A stretch of DNA of 64,000 nucleotides from Clostridiaceae bacterium (GTDB lineage Bacteria > Bacillota > Clostridia > Acetivibrionales > DUMC01): positions 1 through 64,000 of the forward strand of contig DUMC01000135.1 in assembly GCA_012840075.1 (NCBI GenBank), given 5' to 3'. Under the pieces are notes generated by a model. The model had not been told where the DNA came from. It did no database searches and worked only from the letters and a program-made list of their open reading frames with translations. Below are positions 13,443-15,599 of the stretch, piece after piece (positions within the stretch are counted from its first letter, which is position 1; each line of letters begins with the position of its first letter). The position numbers and the translations under genes were made by a program.

Positions 13443-15599
13443 ATGAAGTTAAATAGCCTTAAAACAAAAACAATATTGTTGGTGAGTAGTTTATTAATAG
13501 CAGTTTGTGCCGGCTTGGGTATAATATCTTATTACAATGCATACATTTCATTGAAGGAAACAGTAATTGAAATGTTGTCCAAGCTTGCTATTGAAGCTTC
13601 ACATATAATTGATGCAAAAGTTTCAAATCAATTCTACTCCTTGGAAACTGTTGCTACAAATGAAAAAATACTTACCCTGAACTATAGTCAACTCAGCAAA
13701 GAAAACCTATCAGACGTTATGGAATTGTTAGACCAAGAAGTAAAAAGAATGGAACACAAAGAAATGGCAATAATTGACATGCAAGGAAATGCATTCTATA
13801 ATTCCGGTCGTACAGAAAACCTTGGAGATAAAAGCTATATTCAAACAGCATTAAGCGGAAGCGATTCTTTATCAAATCCTTATCTTAGTGAAATACATAA
13901 CTCATTGGTGATAACCTACACCGTCCCTATAAAAGTTAATAATCAAGTAGTCGGAGCATTGGCAGCTATCCGTGACGGCTATGAATTGAGCGAATTTGCT
14001 AAAGAGATATCCGTAGGGAAATCCGGTAACTCTTTTATTGTTAACAAGGCAGGAAAAACTATCGCACACAGCGATATTGATCTCTTAAATAACATAATAG
14101 GATTGAAGCCCGGCGAAACAGACGCCGTAACATCTGCCACTGCTTCAGCTGATTCATCGGCAAGTACATCATCATCCGCTACTACTTCCGGCTCTTCGGT
14201 AGATGCAGTAACTTCTGCTACTGTACCAGCAAGCAATATTACAAGTGCTCAAGAAAGAATCGGCTTTAAAAACTATGATGTAGTAAGAACTCAAATGCAG
14301 GAAGGTAAAACGGGATTTGCAGAATATGAGTACCTCGGTACTGAAATGTACCTCGGATTTGCCCCAATAAAAAGTTTAGGTTGGTCTATAGCAGTGCAGG
14401 CTGAAAAGTCTGAAATGCTGTCAGGTGTAATAAAGTTACAACGTTCCGGTATAATCGTATCTTTATTGTTCTTAATAATTAGTCTCATACTTGCCTACCT
14501 TTACTCGATGAAGCTTATAAACAAAATTAAAATATTACGTAATTACTCCGTATATCTCGGCGAATATGATTTAAGCAAGGATATTCCTTCGGAATTGCTA
14601 AAGTTAAAAGATGAAATCGGAGACCTGGCAAAAGCATTTTCAATCTTTACTCAAAAGATTCGCTCAATGATTAAAGGAGTAAAAGACAGTGTTAATAAAA
14701 CATCAATAGCAGTTCAAAATATACATGCAGCTACTGAAGCTACAAGTAAAGCCGCTGAACAGATCGCTGCTTCAAGCTCCGAAGTTGCCAACAATGCATC
14801 AAAGCAAAGTCAATATGTCGAAAATATTGTTAATTTAAGTAATAAGAATAAGGATGAGGTTATAAAGGGATTTGAAATTGCTCAAAAAGCCCTGGATGAA
14901 GCAAAGAGGTCAACCTCCGATGCACATGCAGGGAAAGAGGCAATTTTTAAGGCCATAGAACAATTGATAGATGTGCGGGATAAAATGGAAACTACGGCAA
15001 AATTTGTTCAAAGCTTAGGTCAGAGGTCAGAACAAATCGGTAAGATCGTAACAATTATTACAAATATAGCCTCACAGACCAACCTGCTGGCATTAAACGC
15101 CTCAATAGAAGCAGCAAGAGCAGGAGAAAGCGGAAAAGGATTTACAGTGGTTGCCGAAGAAATTCAAAAGCTAGCAGAAGAATCCGCCAAATCAGCTAAG
15201 GAAATTAAACAATTGATCACCGATATACAAAAAGAAACTATTTTGGCTGTAAAAACTATGGAAAGCAATATGGAAAATCTAAATATTCAAATGAAACATC
15301 TTCAAGTTGAAGGAGAATCGTTGGAAAAAATTGTACAAACGGTGAAAAATACAGAATCCAAAGTTGGAAAATTATATTCCACATTAGAAACCGTACAAAC
15401 TTCATCTAGCCAAATTCTAGAAACAGTTATGGACATATCCAAAAATCTTGAAGAGACCGCCGCTTTTTCACAAGAGGTTGCAGCAGCTACAGAAGAACAA
15501 TACTCAGCTTCGGAAGAATTAACTGCAATTGCCAATGAATTATTGACAAATGCAACCAATTTACAGGAAGAAATTGAAGTGTTCAAAACTGAATTGTAA
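13443..15599 (+). CDS. methyl-accepting chemotaxis protein with dCache domain and two DAVTSAT motifs
   Basis: A 718-residue chemoreceptor. TM1 is about residues 8-30, an extracellular double-Cache sensor follows to ~334, TM2 is about 336-356, then a HAMP-like linker and the cytoplasmic methyl-accepting domain with the hairpin tip around [20 protein letters not shown]. It would signal to CheA/CheW. Within the membrane-proximal Cache half a Ser/Thr/Ala-rich insert carries two exact DAVTSAT motifs (residues 227-233 and 254-260), which match the ApbE flavin-transferase signal D-x-x-(S/T)-(G/S)-A-T; covalent FMN on each Thr is therefore possible (inference). The frame opens at 13359, but the upstream part is not hydrophobic and AAGAGAGGG precedes the ATG at 13443. 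A free-standing gene, convergent with the acetyltransferase. Confidence 0.93.

Follow-up and report, generated by a model that had tools for sequence, protein, structure and literature searches.

Conserved ApbE-type heptads in a clostridial family of double-Cache chemoreceptors: a candidate flavin-based sensor of extracytoplasmic redox state

Background

A stretch of clostridial DNA of 64,000 nucleotides, called the window in what follows, encodes a methyl-accepting chemotaxis protein (MCP) whose sensor contains the heptad DAVTSAT twice. The heptad resembles the signal at which the enzyme ApbE attaches FMN to proteins. The published motif is D-x-x-[S/T]-G-A-[S/T]; seven residues are enough for modification, Thr is preferred over Ser, and a seven-residue tag placed in surface loops is functional but less completely modified (PMC12052999). 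The locus therefore raises two questions: are the heptads of this receptor sites of covalent flavin attachment, and what would flavins fixed to a chemoreceptor be used for?

Results

Architecture of the receptor and position of the heptads

The open reading frame of the receptor starts with an ATG at 13443 and ends with a stop codon at 15597-15599. The features on which the analysis relies are the following.

13443..15599, + strand: MCP coding sequence, 718 aa (open reading frame and translation, Pfam, AlphaFold model, PDB matches)
13551-14396, + strand: dCache_1 sensor, residues 37-318 (Pfam, E 9.7e-16)
14106..14258, + strand: tether rich in Ser, Thr and Ala and predicted to be disordered, residues 222-272, inserted in the membrane-proximal Cache (pLDDT <50; orthologue alignment)
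14121..14141, + strand: heptad 1, D227-A-V-T-S-A-T233, predicted FMN acceptor Thr233, codon 14139-14141 (sequence; equivalent motif in orthologues)
14202..14222, + strand: heptad 2, D254-A-V-T-S-A-T260, predicted FMN acceptor Thr260, codon 14220-14222 (sequence; column conservation across 27 receptors)
14442..14510, + strand: approximate second transmembrane helix (TM2), residues 334-356 (hydrophobic stretch within the modelled long helix 327-374)
14898-15440, + strand: MCPsignal domain, residues 486-666 (Pfam, E 2.4e-38)

Two transmembrane helices around a double-Cache sensor, together with a cytoplasmic MCP signalling domain, identify the protein as a dCache MCP. The corresponding Pfam scores were 58.5 bits for dCache_1 (cut-off 45) and 132 bits for MCPsignal. 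AlphaFold2, run on a 27-sequence alignment, produced a confident double Cache, and the Foldseek/PDB matches of this model were the dCache receptors Tlp3, PctA and CtaA. Neither a LOV- or BLUF-like domain nor a PAS domain was present among the Pfam matches of the receptor, which is thus not of the Aer type. PF04205 (FMN_bind) gave no match in the receptor at E-values up to 1, and the receptor was absent from the FMN_bind matches of the genome.

Both heptads lie within residues 222-272, which were modelled with a pLDDT below 50, as against about 90 in the flanking Cache blocks. In this model the tether is disordered, so that it would be accessible, and flexible. It leaves the membrane-proximal Cache between the second strand and the helix preceding QMQEGKTGF. 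The heptads are in frame in the MCP and are located between TM1 and TM2, therefore outside the cytoplasm. This agrees with the sequence-only reading, which had placed two DAVTSAT copies at 14121-14141 and 14202-14222, in an extracellular insert of the membrane-proximal Cache before QMQEGKTGF. A recent DNA duplication was considered as the origin of the two copies and ruled out: their codons differ (GACGCCGTAACATCTGCCACT versus GATGCAGTAACTTCTGCTACT), so that the heptads are not a recent DNA repeat. When the 3.78-Mb genome was searched with a degenerate DNA pattern of the heptad, four matches were obtained: two are the receptor sites, a third is the RnfD FMN site, and the fourth lies antisense in an unrelated open reading frame.

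Conservation of the heptads among orthologues

Eleven orthologues were first found in genomes of the same order, and 26 named loci, partly in the same genomes, were then collected by a profile scan. Scanning the contigs with the single protein gave no matches, whereas the loci were recovered with the alignment as query. Altogether, 28 distinct full-length receptors were analysed, including that of the window. The orthologues are 30-47% identical to the window receptor; Ruminiclostridium cellobioparum, Anaerobacterium chartisolvens, Thermoclostridium caenicola and Maledivibacter halophilus are among their hosts.

Although the insert differs greatly between receptors, both in its length and in its sequence, nearly all of the 28 have one to three D-x-x-[ST]-[SGT]-A-[TS] heptads. 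The commonest number is two, and the spacing ranges from 8 to 27 residues. The two sites proposed earlier thus hold for the window receptor and most of its relatives, but not as a fixed number for the family. Strict D..[ST][GS]A[TS] copies were counted 50 times in the 28 receptors, against 0.28 expected and a maximum of 4 from 2000 shuffles per linker; for the window linker alone, shuffling gave a mean of 0.017 strict motifs against 2 observed. Among the 59 tabulated heptads, position 5 is a Ser in 49, and the acceptor position is a Thr in 42 and a Ser in 17. The pattern used for this table demanded D/E, A and T/S, so that these columns are conditional on it, and the unbiased figure is that of a motif-blind alignment of 27 receptors, in which A259 is invariant, D254 and S258 are conserved in at least 90% of the sequences and little else is conserved in the region. 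The sequence-only reading had proposed to follow the D, A and T residues through an orthologue alignment; in this comparison the heptads are kept while the rest of the linker varies, the opposite of the outcome that it had named as refuting.

An Ala was observed at heptad position 4 in three receptors: L045 (DANATAT/DTIANAT), L053 (DAAATAS/DTVASAT) and L057 (DAAATAS beside an intact DTITSAT). These heptads may or may not be modified, and as natural variants they could serve to test the tolerance of ApbE.

In a maximum-likelihood tree, a single branch (support 100/99) separates the 27 motif receptors from the rest. For this tree the linker had been removed from all rows of the alignment but eight, two of which belong to the motif clade. 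L057 and L059 both carry the motif, although their sequences in the tree start late. None of 18 further dCache MCPs from this order has a heptad. This distribution points to a single origin of the motif receptors, followed by retention. The family is also sharply delimited: in an order-wide profile search its members were retrieved with E-values below 1e-140, whereas the best E-value of the other dCache receptors was 5.6e-69. Among 398 genomes sampled across the phylum, a threshold of E <1e-75 returned the window genome and no further member. The family is narrow, being found mostly in one order and in Maledivibacter.

Comparison with the FMN sites of RnfD

The FMN sites of RnfD proteins of the same order read DAVSSATPL, DAITSATPL and DAISSATPL, the same heptad types as in the receptors. 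In the structure of RnfD from Acetobacterium woodii, FMN is covalently bound to T156 (PMC11889175), which a residue count along the chain sequence identifies as the last residue of DTVTTAT. Because the RnfD heptads have Ser or Thr at position 5 and T156 is modified, Gly is not required at this position in the Rnf lineage. The precedent for Ser or Thr at position 5, where the published consensus has Gly, is confined to these Rnf homologues; among the remaining FMN_bind proteins of the order, SGAT prevails.

Judging from the motif, it is highly probable that the receptor is flavinylated at its heptads. The earlier interpretation of DAVTSAT as an ApbE signal is supported as regards the heptad, which fits D-x-x-[ST]-[G/S/T]-A-[ST]. 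It has to be amended as regards the context, the site being carried by a free, predicted disordered tether and not by an FMN_bind domain.

Two further observations concern the flavoproteins of the order. Two heptads in tandem are found in RnfD of several genomes, namely L116 (G001, which belongs to the family of the window genome), L113 (G035) and L039:10249-11235 (Anaerobacterium chartisolvens), with DAVSSATSVADAVSSATPL, DVVSSATSIDAISSATPL and DPISSATYAGADAVSSATPL as examples; such tandems hint that RnfD may offer FMN more than one site, or that the same peptide has slipped. The order also encodes FMN_bind open reading frames of about 890 to 1700 aa (L136 in Ruminiclostridium cellobioparum, G051; L147; L153), which are probably multi-flavinylated surface proteins.

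Flavinylation genes and gene neighbourhoods

The search for apbE, proposed earlier as a check, with absence of the gene as a refuting outcome, recovered it in the window genome (G000, contig C27) with an E-value of 4.2e-67; its product has an N-terminal hydrophobic segment. The same genome encodes rnfG, rnfD and a small FMN_bind protein, as well as CheW-domain genes, one of them of CheA size. All receptor-positive genomes of the order that were examined contain apbE. However, so do 55 of the 58 genomes of the order, and the co-occurrence is for this reason uninformative beyond the availability of the enzyme. At L001:424-2403 (contig C27), the gene in front of the single apbE encodes a secreted lipoprotein that resembles FMN_bind proteins in appearance but has no flavinylation motif.

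In Anaerobacterium chartisolvens, an FMN_bind lipoprotein carrying DTISGAT is encoded 121 bp downstream of the receptor and is followed by rnfC-D-G-E-A. At the other named orthologue loci, a tblastn search detected neither rnf nor FMN_bind nor apbE around the receptor, the rnf linkage being found in Anaerobacterium only, and no orthologue locus, Anaerobacterium included, had apbE beside the receptor. The lists of open reading frames around the Ruminiclostridium, Thermoclostridium and Maledivibacter receptors likewise contained no rnf, FMN_bind or apbE genes. A conserved rnf/apbE neighbourhood of the receptor was accordingly rejected, the rnf link existing in one genome only.

Discussion

A mechanism for the tethered heptads

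The motifs are conserved, are located outside the cytoplasm and are identical to the FMN heptads of RnfD, and apbE, Rnf and CheA/CheW-type genes are present. The explanation that best accounts for the whole, with a probability of roughly 0.62, is that the receptor bears an ApbE-flavinylated tether used for the sensing of extracytoplasmic redox state or electron acceptors. The membrane-proximal Cache of a dCache receptor would have gained a flexible extracytoplasmic tether with short ApbE-recognition heptads. After export of the protein, ApbE would move FMN from FAD to the last Thr or Ser of each heptad, resulting in a receptor with one to three covalent flavins, two in the present case (on Thr233 and Thr260). 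The tethered flavins could exchange electrons with an extracytoplasmic partner, for example flavoproteins of the Rnf/FMN_bind pool, oxidants, minerals or soluble shuttles. The redox state of the flavins would be sensed through docking on the proximal Cache or through altered dynamics of the tether, and would shift the output of TM2, HAMP and CheA and thereby the swimming bias.

The steps of this scheme differ in strength. As to the function of the receptor, we lean slightly towards redox or electron-acceptor sensing; the docking step is proposed with less support than flavinylation itself. No isoalloxazine-binding pocket was identified in the receptor, which counts against the scheme. That the heptads vary in number and spacing speaks for a flexible antenna rather than for one precise pocket, and the linkage in Anaerobacterium points to the Rnf/FMN_bind pool as the electron partner. 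For the multi-flavinylated protein SaFMN3, whose chemistry is similar, the midpoint potential is -184 mV, and its reduced form reacts readily with dioxygen (PMC10339131). By analogy, a potential in this range would be suitable for a redox or oxygen sensor of an anaerobe.

Alternative explanations

The heptads could be mere accidents of a low-complexity linker, since partial matches arise easily in an insert rich in Ser, Thr and Ala. We reject this explanation, to which we give practically no weight, because the heptads are kept in excess of the shuffled expectation (50 against 0.28) and across the whole clade, with near-invariant D, S and A columns. Shuffling, conservation and tree thus bear out the earlier argument that two exact copies are unlikely by chance. 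If not accidental, the heptads might still be conserved without flavinylation, as an O-glycosylation, peptide-binding or proteolytic site or as a small structural repeat. The Ser/Thr-rich nature of the linker, the prevalence of Ser at position 5 and the few heptads with Ala at position 4 would be compatible with such a role. However, glycosylation is not expected to need an Asp at position 1 and an Ala at position 6, the linker varies freely around the heptads, and RnfD of this order carries these very heptads where its FMN is attached, all of which make a non-flavin role improbable.

Other alternatives accept the flavin and assign it a different use. It might be a bound ligand or structural clamp in a pocket of the proximal Cache, where it would lock or tune the protein, the distal Cache sensing a small molecule and no redox sensing taking place. 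A precedent exists in Flavodoxin_4 and FMN_red proteins, whose sites for non-covalently bound flavin have gained flavinylation motifs (PMC11334425). In the receptor alignment, R177, D178, G179, E181 and L182 of the distal Cache are strongly conserved, which suggests that an ordinary ligand pocket has been kept. One to three copies spaced by 8 to 27 residues fit poorly with one precise pocket, as does a tether modelled as disordered, and we consider this possibility unlikely, though worth keeping in mind. The flavinylated receptor might instead detect blue light or oxygen/ROS, for instance through O2-reactive reduced flavins eliciting avoidance in an obligate anaerobe. Clostridial hosts are anaerobic, which speaks for this use. 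So does the reaction of reduced SaFMN3 with dioxygen (PMC10339131). Against it, the Pfam matches offered no photoreceptor domain of the LOV or BLUF kind, and oxygen sensing is hard to tell apart from redox sensing at the sequence level; we regard it as quite unlikely.

Relation to known systems

The window receptor shares its fold, topology and signalling domain with the dCache MCPs PctA and Tlp3. The latter bind free small ligands and, unlike the window receptor, the related receptors that we examined have no flavinylation heptads. Known ApbE substrates (RnfD, RnfG/NqrC FMN_bind, multi-flavinylated, Flavodoxin_4 and FMN_red proteins) likewise carry the motif D-x-x-[ST]-[GST]-A-[TS] outside the cytoplasm, frequently in several copies. 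They are however electron-transfer proteins or reductases, whereas the present protein is a signalling protein without an FMN_bind domain. In the open-access literature we found no signalling receptor among the described ApbE substrates and no flavinylated chemoreceptor or other receptor, and the main texts of two ApbE-substrate surveys contain no word starting with "chemo". The sequence-only reading had already remarked that no such system was known to it; a description elsewhere is possible.

Aer is a chemoreceptor that reads redox through a flavin (PMC12540587), a role that we only infer for the window receptor. The FAD of Aer is held in a cytoplasmic PAS domain, whereas the sites described here are of the covalent type and lie outside the membrane. 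A second parallel is provided by a 2026 preprint reporting Cache domains with covalent c-type heme and noting that such domains had been believed to lack cofactors (PMC12889525). Like the receptor family as we interpret it, sCache_heme is a Cache sensor that acquired a short motif for a covalent cofactor (PMC12889525). It differs in its cofactor, a heme held by CXXCH, and in having one Cache only; the flexible tether that bears the flavin-type heptads here belongs to a double Cache.

We see even odds that these receptors form a clostridial chemoreceptor family which uses covalent, ApbE-attached flavins on its extracytoplasmic tether to steer motility by cell-surface redox state or extracellular acceptors. 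It would then be an outward-facing, flavin-based equivalent of Aer, and signal transduction would have its first ApbE target. If this is true, ApbE flavinylation would extend from electron-transfer chains and reductases to signal transduction, and flavin would join the cofactors that Cache sensors can gain through short attachment motifs, as a counterpart of the Cache heme. It would also offer cells a direct and testable route for sensing extracytoplasmic redox, a problem of long standing in the study of energy taxis and of taxis towards solid electron acceptors.
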